From the NCBI RefSeq assembly GCF_002940685.1, contig NZ_PNFP01000007.1, positions 1 to 64,000 of the forward strand: DNA of 64,000 nt, in the 5' to 3' direction. The notes under the pieces are model-generated. The model ran no database searches, was not told the origin of the DNA, and worked only from the letters and a program-made list of their open reading frames with translations. Of this stretch, positions 37,040 to 45,029 are shown piece after piece. Numbering within the stretch: position 1 is the first letter of the stretch; every line of letters begins with the position of its first letter. The stretch comes from Ensifer adhaerens. Its GTDB lineage: Bacteria; Pseudomonadota; Alphaproteobacteria; Rhizobiales; Rhizobiaceae. The translations under genes were made by a program, and so were the position numbers.

Positions 37040-38401
37040 TCAGGCGGCGTCGATCGCCTGTCTGAGGTCGGCGATGATGTCGTCCGGATGTTCGATGCCG
37101 ATCGAAAGCCTGACATAGCCGGGGGTGACGCCGGTTTTGAGCTGGTCGATTTCCGACAGCTGCGAATGCGTCGTTGTTGCCGGATGGATGGCCAGCGAGC
37201 GTGCGTCGCCGATGTTGGCAACATGATAGAGCAGCTTCAGCGCGTCGATGAAACGGCGCCCCGCCTCGCGTCCGTCCTTCAGTTCGAAACCGACGAGCGC
37301 ACCGTAGTGGCCGTTCCGCAGGTATTTTGCGGCACGCGCCTCGGCCTCGCCGTCCTGGAACTTCGGGAAGATCACCCGCGCCACCTTGGGGTGGGTGCGG
37401 AGGAACTCGGCCACCTTGATGGCATTGTCGTTGTGCTGGCGGATGCGGAGCGGCAGCGTTTCCAGGCCCTGGATGAACTGGAAAGCGTTCAGCGGACTGA
37501 TGGCGGCGCCAAGGTCGCGCAGGAGCACCGCGCGGGCGCGCAGGATATAGGGATGAAAGGCGATCGTGGCGGCCTTTTCGAGCCAGGTCTTGCCCTGGTA
37601 GCTCGGATCCGGCTCGTGCAGGTTCGGGTGGCGCGCCTCATGTTCGTGCCAGGGGAACTGGCCGCTGTCGATGATCGCGCCGCCGATCGAGGTGCCGTGA
37701 CCGCCGATGTATTTGGTCGTCGAATAGACGACCACCGCGGCGCCGTGATCGAACGGCCGGATCGTCAGCGGTGCTGCCGTGTTGTTGACGATCAGCGGGA
37801 CGCCGAAGCGCTTGCCGATCTCGGCGACCTCGGCGATCGGGAAAACCTCCAGCTTCGGGTTCGGCAGGGACTCGGCATAATAGGCCCGCGTCCTGTCGTC
37901 CGTCGCACGGGCGAAGGCCTCGGGGTCGGCGGCATCGACAAAACGCACCTCGATGCCGAAGCTTTTGAGCGTGGCGGCAAACAGCGCCCAGGTGCCGCCA
38001 TAAAGGCCCGCGGCGCTGACGATGTTGTCGCCGGCGCGCGCAAGGTTCAGCAGCGCGAAGGCCGAGGCCGCCTGGCCGGAGCCGAGCGCCAGCGCCGCCG
38101 CGCCGCCTTCGATTTCCGCCAGCCGCTGTTCGAAGGCGTCCTGCGTCGGGTTGGAGACGCGGGTATAGAGATGTCCCGGCGCCTCCAGCGCAAAGAGCTT
38201 GTCGGCGCCGTCGGTGCCGGGCAGCTGATAGGAGGTCGTCTGGTAGATCGGCACGGCGACGGCGCCGCTTGCCGGATCGAAGCGATAGCTGCCGCCGTGC
38301 AGCGCCAGCGTTTCGGGATGTAGCCGCGAGCCGGCCTCGCGCAGCCCGGTCGGCGCCTTGATCTCGGCTGCGGCTTCCTCCGGCTTTTGATGGATCGTCA
38401 T
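37040..38401 (-). CDS. metY: O-acetylhomoserine sulfhydrylase
   Basis: A 453-aa PLP enzyme of the Cys/Met metabolism family that makes homocysteine from O-acetylhomoserine and sulfide. It has the long MetY form: ALHGGSYRFDPASGAVAVPIYQTTSYQL, LYTRVSNPTQDAFEQRLAEIEGG, and the PLP lysine in VVYSTTKYIGGHGTSIGGAI. The C-terminus reads HPATTTHSQL and GYVRLSIGIEHPDDIIADLRQAI. AAGGAG lies 7 bases before ATG 38401. It follows the 2OG-Fe(II) oxygenase gene by 49 bases on the same strand and is presumably co-transcribed. No SAM-II-type riboswitch was recognisable upstream. Confidence 0.92.
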   Translation of the reverse strand: MTIHQKPEEAAAEIKAPTGLREAGSRLHPETLALHGGSYRFDPASGAVAVPIYQTTSYQLPGTDGADKLFALEAPGHLYTRVSNPTQDAFEQRLAEIEGGAAALALGSGQAASAFALLNLARAGDNIVSAAGLYGGTWALFAATLKSFGIEVRFVDAADPEAFARATDDRTRAYYAESLPNPKLEVFPIAEVAEIGKRFGVPLIVNNTAAPLTIRPFDHGAAVVVYSTTKYIGGHGTSIGGAIIDSGQFPWHEHEARHPNLHEPDPSYQGKTWLEKAATIAFHPYILRARAVLLRDLGAAISPLNAFQFIQGLETLPLRIRQHNDNAIKVAEFLRTHPKVARVIFPKFQDGEAEARAAKYLRNGHYGALVGFELKDGREAGRRFIDALKLLYHVANIGDARSLAIHPATTTHSQLSEIDQLKTGVTPGYVRLSIGIEHPDDIIADLRQAIDAA

Positions 38402-38450
38402 CGCATGTCTCCTTGGCTCTTCGGGTTGGGGGGATCGGCAGCGTCGTTGG

Positions 38451-39488
38451 TCATGCGGGCACGGCCGCCTTCTGCTGTTCCAGCAGATCGGCGTGGTGGG
38501 CGGCGGCGACATCGGGGTGCGAGCGCAGCCGGGATTTCAGCACGTTGCGCCCGACTTCGTGGAAGAGCGGGTTTTGTGGGTCCTGGGTGACGCCACGCAC
38601 CTCGGCTGCAAGCTCCTTCGGCAGGTCGAGCACCGGGATGGTCGAGGCGAGGTTGGCGCCGAGGAAGAAGGCGACCGAAAGCCGGTCGCCGCCGGCCGGC
38701 GGCGTGACCACCCGATGGATGTTGGCGAGCAGATAGCCGTTCGATGCCAGTTCCAGCAGTTCGCCGACATTGATGACGAAGGTGCCGCGCTTCGGCGGCG
38801 CATCGATCCAGCCGCCCTTGCCGTCGTCGACCTGCAAACCGCCGACCACGTCCTGCAGCAGGATGGTGACGAAGCCGCCGTCCTTGTGGGCGCCGACGCC
38901 CTGATCGCTTTCGGTCTTGTCGCGGCCGGGATAGCGGATGATCTTCAGCAATTGGTTTGGGCCGTCGCGATAGATCGGTCCGAAGACATCGGGCCTCTGG
39001 CCGAGCGCCTCGGAAAATATCTCGATCAGCCGGATGCCGAGCCCGGTCACGGCTTCGATGTAGCCGAGGATCGCCGGTTTCAGCTCCGGCAGGGCGTCCG
39101 GAAACTGGTTTGGGCCGACGAGCCGCTTCCACGGCGCGTCACTGGTCGCGATATCGAGGCTCTGGCGTTCCGGGCCGAAGTCGACCTGTTCGCGCCAGTC
39201 CTGGGTGCCGCGCGTAAACTCGAGGCCGGCGCGATTGTAGCCGCGGAAATGTGGCGACTTGCGCATCTCGATCGCCAGCTTGTCATCCTCCGGCAGCGCG
39301 AAGAAGCGACGCGAAAGCGAGAGAATGCCATCGATCTCCTCCTGCGGAATGCCGTGGCCCTGGAGATAGAAGAAGCCCACCGAGCGGGCAACGCTGCGCA
39401 GTCCGTCGAGCGCTGCGGCCCGCTCGGGATGGCCCGCCGCAAAACGCGCGAGGTCAAGGACGGGTAGGGTCGGATTTGTCTGGCTCAA
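38451..39488 (-). CDS. 2-oxoglutarate/Fe(II) oxygenase, isopenicillin-N-synthase family
   Basis: A 345-aa non-haem iron oxygenase. N-terminal DIOX_N segment LPVLDLARFAAGHPERAAALDGLRSVARSVGFFYLQGHGIP, then GYNRAG. Iron ligands are the HKD of VGAHKDGGFVTILLQD and the His of LLANIHRVVTPP, with the 2OG-binding RLS in GGDRLSVAFFLG. This bacterial group acts on varied small substrates and is not a beta-lactam synthase by itself. It heads a two-gene unit with metY, which hints at a sulfur compound or methionine-related substrate, but that is only context. Confidence 0.9.
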   Translation of the reverse strand: MSQTNPTLPVLDLARFAAGHPERAAALDGLRSVARSVGFFYLQGHGIPQEEIDGILSLSRRFFALPEDDKLAIEMRKSPHFRGYNRAGLEFTRGTQDWREQVDFGPERQSLDIATSDAPWKRLVGPNQFPDALPELKPAILGYIEAVTGLGIRLIEIFSEALGQRPDVFGPIYRDGPNQLLKIIRYPGRDKTESDQGVGAHKDGGFVTILLQDVVGGLQVDDGKGGWIDAPPKRGTFVINVGELLELASNGYLLANIHRVVTPPAGGDRLSVAFFLGANLASTIPVLDLPKELAAEVRGVTQDPQNPLFHEVGRNVLKSRLRSHPDVAAAHHADLLEQQKAAVPA

Positions 39489-39942: not shown

Positions 39943-40179
39943 TCAGCAGCGGCCGAGGCTCGGGCGTGTCATCAGTTCGTTGGTGAGATGCGCTCTCTGG
40001 CTGCCGCAGTCCTCGGCTTCCTTGAGCAGCGACGCCAGCGCCAGCTCGAGGCAGTATTGGACGCCTTCGACGTTGAGGGTCTTGGCGGAGTCGCGCGCAT
40101 AGGTGACAAGACGAGCCAGTGCCAAGAGCTCCTTTTCCTTGTCTTCCGGTTCCACCGGTACAGCAAATGAAGATAGCAT
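39943..40179 (-). CDS. Small protein of unknown function downstream of tfuA
   Basis: A 78-aa protein with no recognised domain. It is largely helical: EDKEKELLALARLVTYARDSAKTL, then NVEGVQYCLELALASLLKEAED, ending TNELMTRPSLGRC. ATG 40179 has GGGGAG about 6 bases upstream, which is why it is preferred over longer readings. It lies on the same strand 119 bases after tfuA, with its own candidate promoter region (direct repeats at 40255-40272), so membership in the RiPP locus is possible but unproven. A terminator lies beyond its stop. Confidence 0.6.
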   Translation of the reverse strand: MLSSFAVPVEPEDKEKELLALARLVTYARDSAKTLNVEGVQYCLELALASLLKEAEDCGSQRAHLTNELMTRPSLGRC

Positions 40180-40234: not shown

Positions 40235-40272
40235 GCGTGACTTCGCGGCAGTGCGCGTGACATGAGCGTGAC
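40235..40272. promoter_or_regulatory. GCGTGAC direct repeats upstream of the 78-aa gene
   Basis: GCGTGAC occurs at 40235-40241, 40255-40261 and 40266-40272. The last two are 11 bases apart, about one helical turn, the spacing of OmpR-type response-regulator sites. They lie between tfuA and the 78-aa gene. Confidence 0.4.
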
Positions 40273-40298
40273 ACACGTTGTATCTGAAAACCGCATCC

Positions 40299-41024
40299 TT
40301 AAGATGAAGCGTCAGGTTGACTTAGCAACCTCTTCCACATGCTGGTAGAATTGAATTTCCAGCTTTGCGCTACAACCGTCCGTTGGGCCGGTGTGCGTCG
40401 CAGCATATCGAGCAACTGCTCAGCGTCGACGCGCTTCTGATCGACATATTCGGTCGCTAGCAGCGTGACGAGACGGTGAGCATCGATCCCCGCCGGCAGC
40501 GTGACGCCCGCGACGATGCGGGCCCAGTTGCGCTCCTTGTAGAACATGTCCGACGCTGTCGCGTCGAGCGACGCGATCAGTTCCGGAGCAAGGGCCCGGC
40601 TATGCAAAAGGCGCTTGAGCGTCGCATCGACGTTGACGAGGGGCAGGGTCAGCGGCAGATAGCCGAGTTCGGTGGGGCCGTGGATGAGTGCGACGTCGGC
40701 GTCGTCCACGCGCGCACCTTCGGCGTACTGCCGGTAGATTTCGCCAAGGCCGACCATGCCGTAGGCAGCACATTCCGCCGCGCGAAGCGCGCCCATGCTG
40801 GCGGCGCCGAAGACCTGCACGCCCAACGACAGCGCGTAGAGGATCTCCTTGTGCCAGACGGGCGCGACGTTCTCGAAATTGCCGTCGACCAGTCCGATGG
40901 CGGTCGCGCCGTCTTCGACCGCGCGCAGGACGTCGCCCTGAACGGCGGGCGGGCGGACGATGAGATCCCTGTTTGCCGCGTGGCGTGCGTCCGGCAGCGT
41001 CGGGCCAATGAAGACGACGTTCAT
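40299..41024 (-). CDS. tfuA: TfuA-like protein (YcaO partner)
   Basis: A 241-aa TfuA-core protein. Family hallmarks are plain: VVFIGPTLPDA, DGATAIGLVDGNFENVAPVWHKEILYALSLG, VFGAASMGALRAAECAAYGMVGLGEIYRQYAEG and HGPTELGYLPLTLPLVN. In methanogens and in thioviridamide-type clusters, TfuA works with a YcaO enzyme to turn a backbone amide into a thioamide, probably by helping deliver sulfur. The start at 41024 overlaps the YcaO stop as ATGA, so the two are coupled. It is the last gene of the XRE, SARP-TPR, small peptide, YcaO, TfuA run. Confidence 0.93.
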   Translation of the reverse strand: MNVVFIGPTLPDARHAANRDLIVRPPAVQGDVLRAVEDGATAIGLVDGNFENVAPVWHKEILYALSLGVQVFGAASMGALRAAECAAYGMVGLGEIYRQYAEGARVDDADVALIHGPTELGYLPLTLPLVNVDATLKRLLHSRALAPELIASLDATASDMFYKERNWARIVAGVTLPAGIDAHRLVTLLATEYVDQKRVDAEQLLDMLRRTPAQRTVVAQSWKFNSTSMWKRLLSQPDASS

Positions 41025-42268
41025 CCAGCCTCCAGCGCACGGGCGAGCGCCCGTTCTCCAAAGCGGCGCTTGCGCGCACCGTCGGGATTTTCGAGAGCCG
41101 GCACGACAACCTTGACCACGGAAAAAGGCGCAGCGTCTTCCGTGAGCGGGACGACGACGACCGTCCGGATACAGGCCGCTTCGAGCCGCCGCAGCACGAA
41201 GTCGAGCAGCGGCTGCGGCCCGGTCGGGGCTTCTGTCGATGCCACGGTTCTGCGTTGCGGCATGGCCGCAAACAGGCGTTGCGTTTCCTCGGGCAAGTTT
41301 CGGGCGAATGTTTCCGGGAAGACGTCGTCGCGGGCGCCGCTGATATAGGTCAATCGCGACTGGGCGGCCTCGGTCACTGCGCGGATGGCCGCGCGGCGCG
41401 CCAGCGGATGGGCGCCATGGCCGATGGTCACGTCGTGATAGCGGGGCTGCCTGGCCGACAGGATGCCCGCTTCGGCCAAGGTTGCCGCATAGCAGGGAAC
41501 ACCGATGTCGCTGGTCATGTCGAACAGGCGCAGATCCAGGCCCGAAGACATGATCCGCTTTGCAAGGCCGTCGAGAACGGGGTCCTCCAAGCATGCCGGA
41601 TCGATGCAGCCCCGGTGCTTGCCGCCAAGCGGCAGCAGCCGCCAGAGCGTTTCGGCGTCGCGCTCGATGCGCTCCAGCAATCCGTGCAGGATCGCCTCGG
41701 CCTCGATATTGCCCGAGGCCAGTCCATCGGAGGATTGCCAGTAGCGGCAGCCGTCAATCGTCCGGTCAAGGATTGCCGCTTCGCGCGGAACCCACGTCGT
41801 CGCGCCGTCTAAGAGATCAAAGCCCCGGAGCCAGTCGATCGTTTCGTCGTCCTGAAGATCCGCTTGCCCGGCCGCGATGAGCCCGGCAAGCGGCAGCGCC
41901 CGATCGCCGGTTTCAAACAGCGCCCGGGCGGTCGCCGTTCTTGCCGGCACCAACGGCGCGCAGGCTATGGCGCGCTCGATCGCTTCCATGGCCGCCGAAA
42001 CCTTGGCGTCGATATCGGTGACGCCCTTTCCCTGGTTGATGACGATCGATCGCGCATTGGGCGATACCGCGCTCCAGACGGGGATGCCGATCCGGTCGAG
42101 CCCGGTCAGTCGCGCAAGCCGGCTGACGCCGAGCGCCGGCAAGAATGCCTCGATCCGCCGGAACGTTTCCTCGGGCGGGCAAGCGCGATCGCTGTAGGAA
42201 AGTGGGCCGGCCACCGGGCGGCTGAAATGCCCGTCCGGCGGCCGGCCAATTTCGGTGGTTTGCGCCAC
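41021..42268 (-). CDS. ycaO: YcaO-domain protein (peptide backbone-modifying enzyme)
   Basis: About 415 aa, an ATP-dependent enzyme that phosphorylates a peptide amide oxygen to allow azoline or thioamide formation. Conserved YcaO segments are GKGVTDIDAKVSAAMEAIERAIA, NIEAEAILHGLLERIERDAETLW, IGVPCYAATLAE and LARRAAIRAVTEAAQSRLTYISGARDD. These include the Glu-rich ATP/Mg helices (EAIER, ERIERD). No E1-like or ocin-ThiF domain is attached. The TfuA partner points to thioamidation. No ATG is in frame at the 5-prime end; GTG 42268, 7 bases after the small peptide stop, is taken as start and implies translational coupling with that peptide. Confidence 0.92.
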   Translation of the reverse strand: MAQTTEIGRPPDGHFSRPVAGPLSYSDRACPPEETFRRIEAFLPALGVSRLARLTGLDRIGIPVWSAVSPNARSIVINQGKGVTDIDAKVSAAMEAIERAIACAPLVPARTATARALFETGDRALPLAGLIAAGQADLQDDETIDWLRGFDLLDGATTWVPREAAILDRTIDGCRYWQSSDGLASGNIEAEAILHGLLERIERDAETLWRLLPLGGKHRGCIDPACLEDPVLDGLAKRIMSSGLDLRLFDMTSDIGVPCYAATLAEAGILSARQPRYHDVTIGHGAHPLARRAAIRAVTEAAQSRLTYISGARDDVFPETFARNLPEETQRLFAAMPQRRTVASTEAPTGPQPLLDFVLRRLEAACIRTVVVVPLTEDAAPFSVVKVVVPALENPDGARKRRFGERALARALEAG

Positions 42269-42275
42269 GCGTGGA

Positions 42276-42497
42276 CTAGCCGTCCATGAACCCGCCGGAA
42301 ACGGAGTCGGACGAGGCTGCAGCCACGGCGAGATTGACGCCCTTGTGTACCGTTGCGCCACTGCTGATGCGCAGGTCGTTGGCCACGGCCAGCGGTCCTT
42401 GCTTCGGCTTCGCGATCTGCGACACCGTGCCCGCGTCCAGATCCGCAACCCAAAGCCTGTCGTCGCCCGCCAAGCCGATCACTACCACTTTCGCCAT
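42276..42497 (-). CDS. Candidate RiPP precursor peptide, 73 aa
   Basis: A 73-aa peptide encoded between a regulator and ycaO, 29 bases after the regulator stop and 7 bases before the ycaO start. GGAGG lies about 6 bases before its ATG, the strongest ribosome site of the locus, as expected for a highly made precursor. The N-terminal 30 residues (MAKVVVIGLAGDDRLWVADL then DAGTVSQIAK) look like a structured leader. The C-terminal part is small-residue-rich (VNLAVAAASSDSVSGGFMDG) and may be the core. It has no cysteine, so Cys-derived thiazoles are excluded; backbone thioamide or Ser-derived oxazoline remains possible. It resembles no family I can name. Confidence 0.8.
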   Translation of the reverse strand: MAKVVVIGLAGDDRLWVADLDAGTVSQIAKPKQGPLAVANDLRISSGATVHKGVNLAVAAASSDSVSGGFMDG

Positions 42498-42526
42498 CTG
42501 CCCCTCCTGTTGCTTGATGTGAGAAA

Positions 42527-44398
42527 TCAGAAGCCCGCCTTGCGCAGGCCTTCGCAATAGTGAATTCGCTGCCATTCCTCTCTGAAGGGAACGATGGCGA
42601 TCCATTTGTCGAGATCGAAATCCGGGTGCACGTCGAAAGTCTTGCGGACGAACTGACGGGCCTTTTTCTGGTTGCCGAGCATGCCCCAGCTCGCTGCCGA
42701 CAGGCGATCGGCCGGCGTTGGGTCGCGCATGCGCTCGATATAGGCGATGGCCTGTTCGTATCGGCCGAGCGAGTAGCTGGCGCCGGCCGCGGTCCAGAAA
42801 TACTCGTCCGGCGCAATCGGGTTGAGGTCGAGTGCCGCCTCTATCTTGCGCAGCCCGCCTTCCGGCCGCGAGGCCTGCACCAGCGTATCGGCGTAGCTCG
42901 CAATCACGTTGGCATGCTGCGGGCTCAGCGCTTCCGCCTTGTCATGGAATTCCATGCTCTCGTCGAACTGCCGGAGGTAAAGTTTGACGACGCCGAGTTC
43001 GCGGTAGCCCGTCGCCAGCGTGTCGTCGGCGACAACCGCGTCGCGTGCATGCCGTTCGGCGAGTGCCAGCAATTCTGCATCGCCGCGGGCCGTCAGCAGC
43101 CATTCGACGAAGTAGCTGCGCGCCAGGCCGCTCATCGCGGGCGCGAAGTCGCCGTTCTGGTAGAGCGCCTCGCGGAAACTCTTGCGGGCGCGCCGCACCT
43201 CCGGAAGGTTGAGCTGCTTGAGATAGCGCTGCCCGAGCAGGAAGCTGCGGTAGGAGCCGACATTGGTCTCGTAGGTCTTGCGATGGGTCTCGTTGCGGTC
43301 CACCTGGCTCGCGATGGCCAGCGCGATCTGGCGCGCGATTTCGCGTCGCGAGGTCATCAGTCCGTCGCCGTCGAGATTGAAGCGGTCGGCCCAGATCACC
43401 TCGTCATTGGCAAAGAAGATCAACTGCGTGAAGAGCGTCAGCCGGTTGCCTTCGTTGGTGAGGCGCGTGTCGAGAATGTAGCTGATGGCGTGCTTCTGGT
43501 ACGTGTTGGCCTTGTCGGCCTGGAGGCTGATCTGGGCGGCGGTATAGGGCGCGATCACCGAAACCGAGCGAAGCGCGCAGAGCCCGATGGTCACGTCCTC
43601 GATCAATGCGCTCGCAAACTGTGTTGCCGGACTGTCGATCGCGCCGTTGTTGGGCGGCAACAGGACGACGCGCGGCAGGCGCGTGTCGACAGCCGGCTCC
43701 GGCGTCGGCGCGTATACCGTCGAGACCGGCCGCCACTCCGGGCCGGCCGACGCGACCGCAGTGCCGCTGTTTAAGACTGCCCGCGCCTCCAGGTGGTTGC
43801 CTTCGAGCTGGAACGCCTGCGTCAGGATCTTGCGGACGTCCTCGTCGAGCGGGTTGCGCTCGAGCAGCCGGGTCGCGGCCGCCTTGACCAGCTTGCGGTG
43901 ATTGTTCGTCGCATCCGGCGCGGCCAGAAGCAGGCTTTCGCGCAAGAGCGCCATGTGCTCGCACCGCTGCCGCTCGATCCAGCCATGCAGTGCCTGGCCC
44001 TGGGATTTCAGGTCCTTGAGGAAGTCCTCCTGGAAAGTCTCTACCGCCCACTGGAGACGGGAAAGCGGATCGCCCGCCTCACGCCCGATGGTATCGAGAT
44101 CGCTCTTGAGCAGGGTGGTATCGAGACGCACCACCGACGGCGAAAAACTCAGGAAGTGACAACCGAGTTCTTGCTGGCGTGCGCTGATGCGGGAGATCGT
44201 CTTGCGCAGATTGACGAAGGCCTGGCTCGGGACGATCTCGTCCCACAACAGCTTGGCGACTTCGTTTCTGGACTGCTCGCTGATCCCGCCGACGATCAGA
44301 TGACACAGGATCAGCAGACCTTTTTCCGGGAAAGCAACTTCACGCCCGTCGCCATCGACGAGCTGCAAACGCCCGAGGGTCTGCAGTCTGAATGTCAT
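42527..44398 (-). CDS. SARP-like winged-helix/TPR regulator
   Basis: A 623-aa protein. Residues about 1-95 form an AfsR/SARP-type winged helix (FRLQTLGRLQLVDGDGREVAFPEKGLLILCHLIVGG, then LLWDEIVPSQAFVNLRKTISRI). Residues about 95-215 form a bacterial-transcriptional-activation-like helical domain. A TolB-N/FlgO-like domain follows at about 240-370 (RVVLLPPNN, SALIEDVTIGLCALRSVSVIAPYTA, RLTLFTQLIF). The rest is TPR helices up to the C-terminus. No membrane helix is seen. It lies 24 bases after the XRE gene and 29 before the small peptide, so it probably activates the peptide operon that it belongs to. Confidence 0.85.
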   Translation of the reverse strand: MTFRLQTLGRLQLVDGDGREVAFPEKGLLILCHLIVGGISEQSRNEVAKLLWDEIVPSQAFVNLRKTISRISARQQELGCHFLSFSPSVVRLDTTLLKSDLDTIGREAGDPLSRLQWAVETFQEDFLKDLKSQGQALHGWIERQRCEHMALLRESLLLAAPDATNNHRKLVKAAATRLLERNPLDEDVRKILTQAFQLEGNHLEARAVLNSGTAVASAGPEWRPVSTVYAPTPEPAVDTRLPRVVLLPPNNGAIDSPATQFASALIEDVTIGLCALRSVSVIAPYTAAQISLQADKANTYQKHAISYILDTRLTNEGNRLTLFTQLIFFANDEVIWADRFNLDGDGLMTSRREIARQIALAIASQVDRNETHRKTYETNVGSYRSFLLGQRYLKQLNLPEVRRARKSFREALYQNGDFAPAMSGLARSYFVEWLLTARGDAELLALAERHARDAVVADDTLATGYRELGVVKLYLRQFDESMEFHDKAEALSPQHANVIASYADTLVQASRPEGGLRKIEAALDLNPIAPDEYFWTAAGASYSLGRYEQAIAYIERMRDPTPADRLSAASWGMLGNQKKARQFVRKTFDVHPDFDLDKWIAIVPFREEWQRIHYCEGLRKAGF

Positions 44399-44422
44399 CC
44401 GGTCGTTCCTGTCGCGCGGTGC

Positions 44423-44878
44423 TTAGCCGTGCAGGTCCTGAGCGTGGCTCGCCGCAGCGCGGGGGCTCTCGGTCTCTGGCGTCTGGGCAACGGCTGCTAC
44501 CAGCGAGATGATCTTCTTGCGCAGCACCGGGTCCGTGATCTTCAGGAACGCGCGATTGAGCGCGATGCCTTCCTTCGACGAAACGAAGGACGAGATTTCG
44601 CTCGGTTCGCGCGTCGTGTCGCCCGCACCGTTGCGCGCGCCGGCGGGGTCTTCACCCTCCTGGAAGAAGAAGCTCGGGTGCACGCCGAGGATATCGGCGA
44701 TCGCCTGCAGACGGCTCGCGCCGATGCGGTTGGTGCCTTTTTCGTACTTCTGTACCTGCTGGAATGTGATCCCGAGACCGTCGGCCAGCTTTTCCTGGCT
44801 CAGTCCGGCCATCAACCGACGCATCCTGACGCGGGAACCGACAAAGACATCGATCTGGCTGGGGGCTTTCGTGTTCAC
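44423..44878 (-). CDS. XRE-family HTH regulator
   Basis: A 151-aa Cro/CI-type regulator of a form common in Rhizobiales. The HTH is at residues 11-67: VGSRVRMRRLMAGLSQEKLADGLGITFQQVQKYEKGTNRIGASRLQAIADIL, followed by GVHPSFFFQEGED. A linker and a C-terminal helical piece (ALNRAFLKITDPVLRKKIISLVAAVAQ) follow, probably for dimerisation. The start is a GTG at 44878 with GGAGGA 8 bases upstream. It is first of the same-strand run leading to ycaO and tfuA. Confidence 0.92.
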   Translation of the reverse strand: MNTKAPSQIDVFVGSRVRMRRLMAGLSQEKLADGLGITFQQVQKYEKGTNRIGASRLQAIADILGVHPSFFFQEGEDPAGARNGAGDTTREPSEISSFVSSKEGIALNRAFLKITDPVLRKKIISLVAAVAQTPETESPRAAASHAQDLHG

Positions 44879-45029
44879 TTGTATTTCCTCCGCACGTAGG
44901 AGTGGTCAATTCATACATATGAGTTTGCTTGAATAAATGGCCTGATGCAATCACTACGGGCTAAAACACAAAGATTTGCGACGCTTTGGTGATTTTGCCC
45001 GGGGCGCATGGGACAATGACCGTCGCGAT

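Follow-up and report, generated by a model that had tools for sequence, protein, structure and literature searches.

The window analysed here, a stretch of 64,000 nt from Ensifer adhaerens (contig NZ_PNFP01000007.1, positions 1 to 64,000), carries a compact peptide-modification locus around a YcaO and a TfuA gene. Five genes lie on the reverse strand at 44878–40299, in the order XRE regulator, SARP/TPR regulator, 73-aa peptide, YcaO and TfuA. The gaps between the first four genes are 24, 29 and 7 nt, and YcaO and TfuA share a 4-nt ATGA overlap. A reading made from the letters of the window alone (the sequence-only reading) had described the same five genes, gaps and overlap, and all of the open reading frames (ORFs) were found in place. 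A sixth and last gene follows on the same strand (Table 1). The window's genome (7.5 Mb, 81 contigs) contains a single YcaO and a single TfuA. The locus belongs to a real, widespread and minimal YcaO-TfuA family of ribosomally synthesised and post-translationally modified peptides (RiPPs), found in many rhizobia.

Table 1. Features of the YcaO-TfuA locus, with positions in the window
Feature	Position	Strand	Evidence
XRE regulator, 151 aa, GTG start, first gene of the run	44423..44878	-	HTH_3 (Pfam), 1e-14
SARP/TPR regulator, 623 aa	42527..44398	-	TPR (Pfam), structure model
Precursor peptide, 73 aa	42276..42497	-	Family alignment, 67/80 loci, dN/dS
YcaO, 415 aa, GTG start, predicted amide-activating thioamidation enzyme	41021..42268	-	PF02624, 5e-62
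TfuA, 241 aa, predicted sulphur-delivery partner	40299..41024	-	PF07812, 1.5e-40
Small helical protein, 78 aa, sixth and last gene	39943..40179	-	tblastn relatives, alignment
Conserved block, 35 bp, just upstream of the XRE gene	44916..44950	-	8 of 10 aligned upstream regions
Direct repeat TGTGTCACGC-N4-GTCACGC, heptamer, 11-bp period	40255..40275	-	Lies between tfuA and the 78-aa gene

The loci counted below are the best 80 of 454 confirmed YcaO relatives in named genomes and come from Ensifer, Sinorhizobium, Rhizobium, Shinella, Hoeflea, Phyllobacterium and other genera. Precursors were called in them with a hidden Markov model (HMM) of the leader, made from 22 precursors. Within the order, YcaO relatives (many of them distant) turned up in 85 of the 397 genomes scanned, and in 16-kb stretches around 40 YcaO places the small ORF, SARP, XRE and TfuA co-occurred in the nearer relatives. 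A precursor was found in 18 of 297 sampled genomes of the order, all 18 of which also had a YcaO match, and in one of 385 genomes of a class-wide scan, namely the window's own; both counts are lower bounds, as only part of the first-look candidates was scored. The search of phages found no YcaO relative. The XRE regulator has a 95% identical copy on an E. adhaerens plasmid, and the YcaO is 84.8% identical to a plasmid copy from E. adhaerens.

The 73-aa peptide is not a chance ORF; it belongs to a real and conserved precursor family. In 67 of the 80 loci the gene immediately ahead of YcaO was a family precursor, and the ratio of nonsynonymous to synonymous substitution rates (dN/dS, 0 to 0.26 in 18 pairs) indicates purifying selection. 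The earlier view that the locus serves peptide modification and brings regulators of its own is supported. The peptide comprises a leader (residues 1 to about 46) and a C-terminal region (residues 47–73) that ends in VSGGFMDG, with one core copy and no Cys. The leader consensus is MAK-VVVIG-x-x-GE-x-GLW-x-ADL-x-AGTV. A second motif, G-V-[DN]-[LF]-A-V, stands ahead of the core, and precursors of the single-core type end in S-G-x-[FVLMY]-D-G. In 35 chosen rows, mostly single-core, G8, G11, D19, G23 and G69 were invariant. Searching Rhizobiales for the peptide-YcaO-TfuA triplet and aligning the precursors, as the sequence-only reading had suggested, gave a conserved leader and a core around Gly69.

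The best AlphaFold model of the precursor had a beta-beta-beta-alpha leader and an unstructured tail; it was the one confident model of five, and the other four were poor. The 73-aa peptide matched no named family in Pfam or NCBIfam. For nine precursor relatives, the matches to named families were low-scoring, repeat-driven or below the cut-off; one to DUF3993 was just above the cut-off and lay on the repeat, and none was accepted.

Tandem core repeats were found in 30 of 105 distinct precursors. The count was checked by hand: eight false doubles given by the regular expression were removed by eye, and four multi-core precursors of the ASH type that it had missed were added. Examples are three copies of SGGFMD in Shinella (locus L080), four of SGKLE/D (L111), six of GGLFE/SGLFE (L050) and whole GVDxAV...SGHxD units (L077). 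A Cys after residue 45 occurred in four of the 105. A distant precursor class carries RSDAASHxxY units in tandem (L051, L052, L055, L056); together with L063, these precursors have the same kind of leader, and cores such as RSDAASHIFYG and SEAASHYYYP replace SG-x-F-D. By analogy, a variable number of repeats behind a fixed leader has the look of a multi-core RiPP precursor and matches the precursors of the thiovarsolins. Eight further loci with a SARP or a YcaO have other small ORFs, unmatched by the leader model. Among them are L062, L064–L066 and L070, more distant loci of the layout SARP-small ORF-YcaO-TfuA, which point to a wider range of SARP-linked YcaO-TfuA systems.

The enzymes were compared with solved relatives. 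The best match of the YcaO family profile was MJ1094 (6pe3, 9.9e-61), which we take to be a YcaO of the thioamidating type. The next match was at 2.6e-26, and the azoline-forming YcaOs ranged from 1e-22 to 1e-26. Judged by these profile scores, the nearest relative of the YcaO is the thioamidating enzyme of the McrA type. TfuA matched the solved TfuA 6xp8 at 4.2e-26. The assignment of both proteins to the thioamide type in the sequence-only reading agrees with these matches.

The same comparison bears on an azole-forming cluster with a stand-alone YcaO, of the linear azol(in)e-containing peptide (LAP) or thiazole/oxazole-modified microcin (TOMM) kind. The homology of the YcaO to SagD-type enzymes (TIGR03604, 2.1e-29) and the Ser in the core would fit such a cluster, but the YcaO is much nearer to MJ1094 than to the azoline YcaOs, TfuA is present, the precursor has no Cys and no C protein or dehydrogenase recurs. 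We regard this explanation as very improbable. No LAP/TOMM partner (E1-like C or fused CD protein, flavin dehydrogenase) was found in nine scanned flanking ORFs or among recurring neighbours of ≥120 aa.

The flank scan covered nine ORFs of ≥260 aa, out of 31 such ORFs in 30000–56000. Pfam identified a 2-oxoglutarate (2OG) oxygenase, a Cys/Met pyridoxal phosphate (PLP) enzyme, a zinc alcohol dehydrogenase, an SH3 protein, MscS and a transglycosylase; three ORFs had no match. The genes of the 2OG-Fe(II) oxygenase and the Cys/Met-metabolism PLP enzyme lie beside the locus (37040–39488), and neither is a recurring neighbour in relatives. Among ORFs of ≥120 aa around the relatives, only the known genes recurred at a fixed place (antisense shadows aside). 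An ABC-ATPase cluster reached 31 loci, with neither strand nor position constant. No exporter or protease at a fixed place was found among these recurring ORFs, although a distant one is possible. The earlier view that an E1-like partner is lacking is supported by these scans, as is the lack of an exporter at a fixed place.

Taken together, we consider it probable that the locus makes a thioamidated RiPP with a minimal YcaO-TfuA gene set. Its precursor would be the 73-aa peptide, with the N-terminal ~46 residues as leader and the C-terminal region as substrate. YcaO would activate the peptide amide using ATP, and TfuA would supply sulphide. The best candidate for the thioamidated residue is the invariant Gly69 in S-G-G69-F-M-D-G. 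Host peptidases may then release a short modified peptide, so that a dedicated protease or exporter would be unneeded, as proposed for thiovarsolins. XRE and SARP/TPR would govern expression, and the promoter with the direct repeats ahead of the 78-aa gene is probably where the SARP acts.

Several observations weigh against a thioamidated product. Both enzymes stayed below the scores that NCBIfam sets for equivalogs in McrA thioamidation (202.6 of 365 bits in one case and 166.8 of 235.2 bits in the other), which makes them relatives of those enzymes and not proteins of the same function. The known thioamide-making TfuAs belong to clade 1, while most proteobacterial groups fall in clade 2, whose function is unproven (PMC8120280); the window's TfuA may belong to either. 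The distant core class (ASHxYY type) lacks the SG-x motif. In the window TfuA adjoins YcaO; at 16 of the 80 loci no TfuA match was found in the stretch, some of these being clipped by contig ends. Six Sinorhizobium loci have the precursor and no TfuA directly after YcaO, and TfuA lies elsewhere in all six genomes. At nine of the 80 loci, YcaO has neither precursor nor TfuA beside it; hence, it could serve another substrate there. We infer the thioamide from the kinship of the enzymes and regard it as likely.

The loci without a precursor were followed further. The sequence-only reading had held that homologous loci lacking a conserved small ORF before ycaO would speak against a dedicated precursor. 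Such loci exist (13 of the 80), and all 13 genomes hold a family precursor elsewhere. All 13 loci also lack the SARP and nine lack TfuA; XRE is still beside YcaO in 12. Eight of the 80 loci consist of XRE, YcaO and the 78-aa gene, and one of YcaO and the 78-aa gene alone. At the second sites that were fetched (L210–L223), a SARP stands directly before the precursor, and TfuA lies ≤4.5 kb away in nine of 14. Eight reduced loci with XRE, YcaO and the small gene (L097, L098, L118, L129, L130, L131, L133, L147) have SARP-precursor pairs elsewhere in the genome, several of them beside a divergent TfuA, and thus form a split pathway.

These reduced loci could mean that YcaO-TfuA modifies another cellular protein and that the small ORF encodes a regulator or chaperone which stays unmodified. 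YcaOs can act on whole proteins, as with McrA and uL16 (PMC13063428). However, a leader with repeated cores follows the logic of a substrate, every genome with a reduced locus retains a precursor, and TfuA stays close to the precursor at most second sites. We find this explanation rather improbable.

The precursor is tied to the SARP. A SARP lay ≤400 nt upstream on the same strand for 107 of 114 precursor ORFs (from named, unnamed and second-site loci, some places being counted twice), and YcaO lay directly after 98 of the 114. All 16 precursor entries (15 distinct) without an adjoining YcaO had a SARP directly before them. The family's most unusual trait is that each precursor comes paired with a SARP/TPR regulator of its own.

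The window's genome has an extra pair at C3, SARP2 (649 aa) and a precursor ending in SSGHYDG (C3:78905-79120), with no YcaO or TfuA nearby. As this genome has one of each enzyme, the single YcaO-TfuA pair probably serves two precursors. Two or more precursors were carried by 11 of 50 further genomes; these were chosen for a precursor at the locus, so only the multiplicity is informative. Plasmid pC5.7c of Rhizobium rhizogenes (142 kb; L226, 3293–13167) has tandem systems, one with XRE, SARP, precursor (SGGFMDG) and YcaO and one with a multi-core precursor, YcaO and TfuA. An 'iron-containing redox enzyme' is encoded past the second system and may be heme-oxygenase-like, as VarO is.

In the structure model of the SARP/TPR regulator, a winged helix (~3–99) is followed by BTAD-like helices (111–210), a TolB-like alpha/beta domain (243–342) and TPRs (344–621). 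The model had a pLDDT of 85.3 and a pTM of 0.58, and its order of secondary structures fits winged helix plus BTAD. The top Foldseek matches were mostly generic TPR proteins, with the CadC sensor domain 3ly7 at an E-value of 1.1e-6; the VIA-align list contained TPR proteins only. Pfam found BTAD in five of 23 N-termini (best 2.9e-6) and Trans_reg_C in one of the 23, which is weak sequence evidence for a SARP, as is the match to AfsR (E-value 0.076). The label 'SARP-like' given earlier agrees with the predicted domain order and has weak support in the sequence. The protein resembles the large SARP regulators AfsR and PimR in its predicted N-terminal winged helix and BTAD, its C-terminal regulatory domains and its candidate operators of heptamer direct repeats with 4-bp spacers. 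Unlike in AfsR and PimR, TolB-like and TPR domains replace the NOD/ATPase part.

The sixth gene has tblastn relatives at 68 of the 80 loci, and its protein matched no Pfam family. Its longest ORF is 117 aa. We took it as 78 aa because a conserved element overlaps the 5' part of the 117-aa ORF and a ribosome-binding-like stretch precedes the ATG at 40179.

The direct repeat ahead of this gene is followed by a third GTCACGC 20 bp past the second and then by TATGAT. With ≤2 mismatches and ≤400 bp after tfuA or ycaO, the repeat was found in 50 of the 80 loci and in none of 2959 random 400-bp stretches. It was present in 46 of 61 loci with a SARP in cis, as opposed to four of 19 without. The exact site occurs once in the genome. 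Taken by itself the site carries little weight, since 1.5 matches in the window would arise by chance at ≤2 mismatches when the TGT prefix is left out; hence, the fixed place across loci is what counts. The repeat was absent from the second loci L210–L224, from many unnamed loci (e.g. L039–L048) and, at the threshold above, from 30 of the 80 named loci. One of the 30, L082, does have it and was missed because the TfuA end was not recognised. Many loci have a TATxxT-like stretch downstream of the repeat; in the window, no sigma-70-like site was called near it. PhoB boxes have a similar 7-4-7 layout, so that the layout alone does not fix the binder. SARP operators consist of heptamers repeated in the same direction and set 4 bp apart (PMC5930380, PMC10936776). 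SARP sites are quoted at an 8-bp distance to the -10 (PMC10936776), and the window's repeat is not at this distance.

The 35-bp block upstream of the XRE gene is conserved in Ensifer relatives and has one site in the whole genome (≤3 mismatches). It is likely the promoter or operator of the operon.

The pairing and the repeat raise the possibility of a signal-receptor pair. The thioamidated peptide would be the ligand of its partner SARP/TPR, which on binding would activate the promoter with the direct repeats ahead of the 78-aa gene, and possibly further promoters, in an autoregulatory or quorum circuit. We hold this only tentatively. The pairing of SARP and precursor, also where YcaO is missing, the orphan pair in the window's own genome and the enrichment of the repeat, a known SARP operator form, at loci with a SARP in cis argue for it. 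In the model, the C-terminal half of the regulator appears TolB-like with TPRs, like the CadC sensor, and in AfsR the SARP domain is held in check by TPR/NOD domains (PMC10936776). Over 56 loci, with XRE allowed for, core distances tracked the TPR domain best (partial r of 0.50, compared with 0.32 for YcaO and 0.23 for TfuA). However, linkage alone yields such correlations, and the 95% bootstrap range of the TPR-minus-YcaO difference (-0.06 to 0.38) includes zero; the correlation is suggestive only. Against a signal stand also the seven of 114 precursors without a SARP, the second loci without the repeat and the spacing of the window's repeat, with no sigma-70-like site called. No RRNPP-type receptor was among the listed fold matches; the observed basis is the gene pairing together with a predicted TPR fold.

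A wider form of this idea is Gram-negative signalling by modified peptides. Each SARP/TPR and precursor would be a receptor-ligand pair, one YcaO-TfuA would serve several of them in trans, the thioamide would give a short peptide stability and specificity, and the 78-aa promoter would be the conserved output. We consider this speculative and somewhat doubtful.

Alternatively, the product may be a narrow-spectrum antimicrobial peptide whose synthesis the SARP controls, and the 78-aa protein would then be an immunity factor. The closest RiPP clusters are specialised-metabolite clusters, and presence on megaplasmids varies by strain: 180 plasmid records have a YcaO relative, and the region on pSymB of Sinorhizobium meliloti Ak57 (L227, 2900–6170) is near-identical in only four, which marks it as strain-variable. 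An antimicrobial role nevertheless seems unlikely, as the core is conserved across genera with low dN/dS, no exporter of ≥120 aa recurs at a fixed place and strand, and the 78-aa gene is retained at loci without precursor, SARP and TfuA. The annotation of the Ak57 region calls the SARP/TPR gene an adenylate cyclase and lists both the precursor and the small last gene as hypothetical proteins.

Among known systems, the thiovarsolin pathway of Streptomyces varsoviensis (varA, varY, varT, varO) is a close parallel to the RiPP reading. There, precursor, YcaO and TfuA suffice, the cores are repeated and no dedicated protease is present (PMC6511847); the minimal gene set, the one to several cores across the precursor family and the missing protease are shared with the present loci. 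The core differs, being APR/GPR there (PMC6511847) and SGGFMDG in the window, with no APR/GPR core in the precursors listed. The leader sequences differ too, and the thiovarsolin system is actinobacterial. VarO heme-oxygenase, VarS, VarL and VarP are not among the recurring genes (ORFs of ≥120 aa; no VarO model was searched). The portions of the thiovarsolin text that were searched do not mention a SARP (PMC6511847). McrA thioamidation in methanogens uses a YcaO-TfuA pair with overlapping stop and start codons (PMC5589413), as in the window, and provides the nearest solved relatives. Its substrate is a large enzyme, whereas here it would be a co-encoded small peptide. Thioamitides of the thioviridamide type have a core Cys for the AviMeCys ring, unlike the window's precursor.

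The sequence-only reading went too far in setting the locus apart from any described product family. YcaO-TfuA clusters in Rhizobium are catalogued (PMC8120280, PMC10434180), and the thiovarsolins are a proven minimal analogue (PMC6511847). One survey counted 2,326 unique YcaO-TfuA clusters, 70% of them proteobacterial and over 500 in Rhizobium, and calls for tests of the second TfuA clade (PMC8120280). Thioamitide-related clusters are also described on Rhizobium plasmids, with unknown role (PMC10434180). The present loci are of the same class as these TfuA-related ('thioamitide') clusters; the main texts of the surveys, as far as accessible, contain no leader family, rhizobial core repeats, SARP pairing, split loci or operator (PMC8120280, PMC10434180). 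The literature searched, which excluded supplements and subscription papers, held no description of the precursor family, layout, SARP pairing or operator. Rhizobium anhuiense CCBAU 23252 (L121), which belongs to the same species as the trifolitoxin strain T24, has the locus and, in its genome, three TfuA genes; for this reason, the historic tfuA could not be assigned to the locus.

The locus is promising as the possible source of a new peptide product or of a new signal. The question of why Rhizobium conserves thioamitide-related clusters (PMC10434180) can now be put to a defined system, in which a precursor family with a predicted core and a candidate thioamide site comes with a partner regulator and a conserved candidate operator. 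The rhizobial hosts are genetically tractable. Precursor, YcaO and TfuA form a small system for site choice by YcaO-TfuA in one- and many-core peptides, and also for the way in which a single enzyme pair could act on precursors whose genes lie at other genomic sites.

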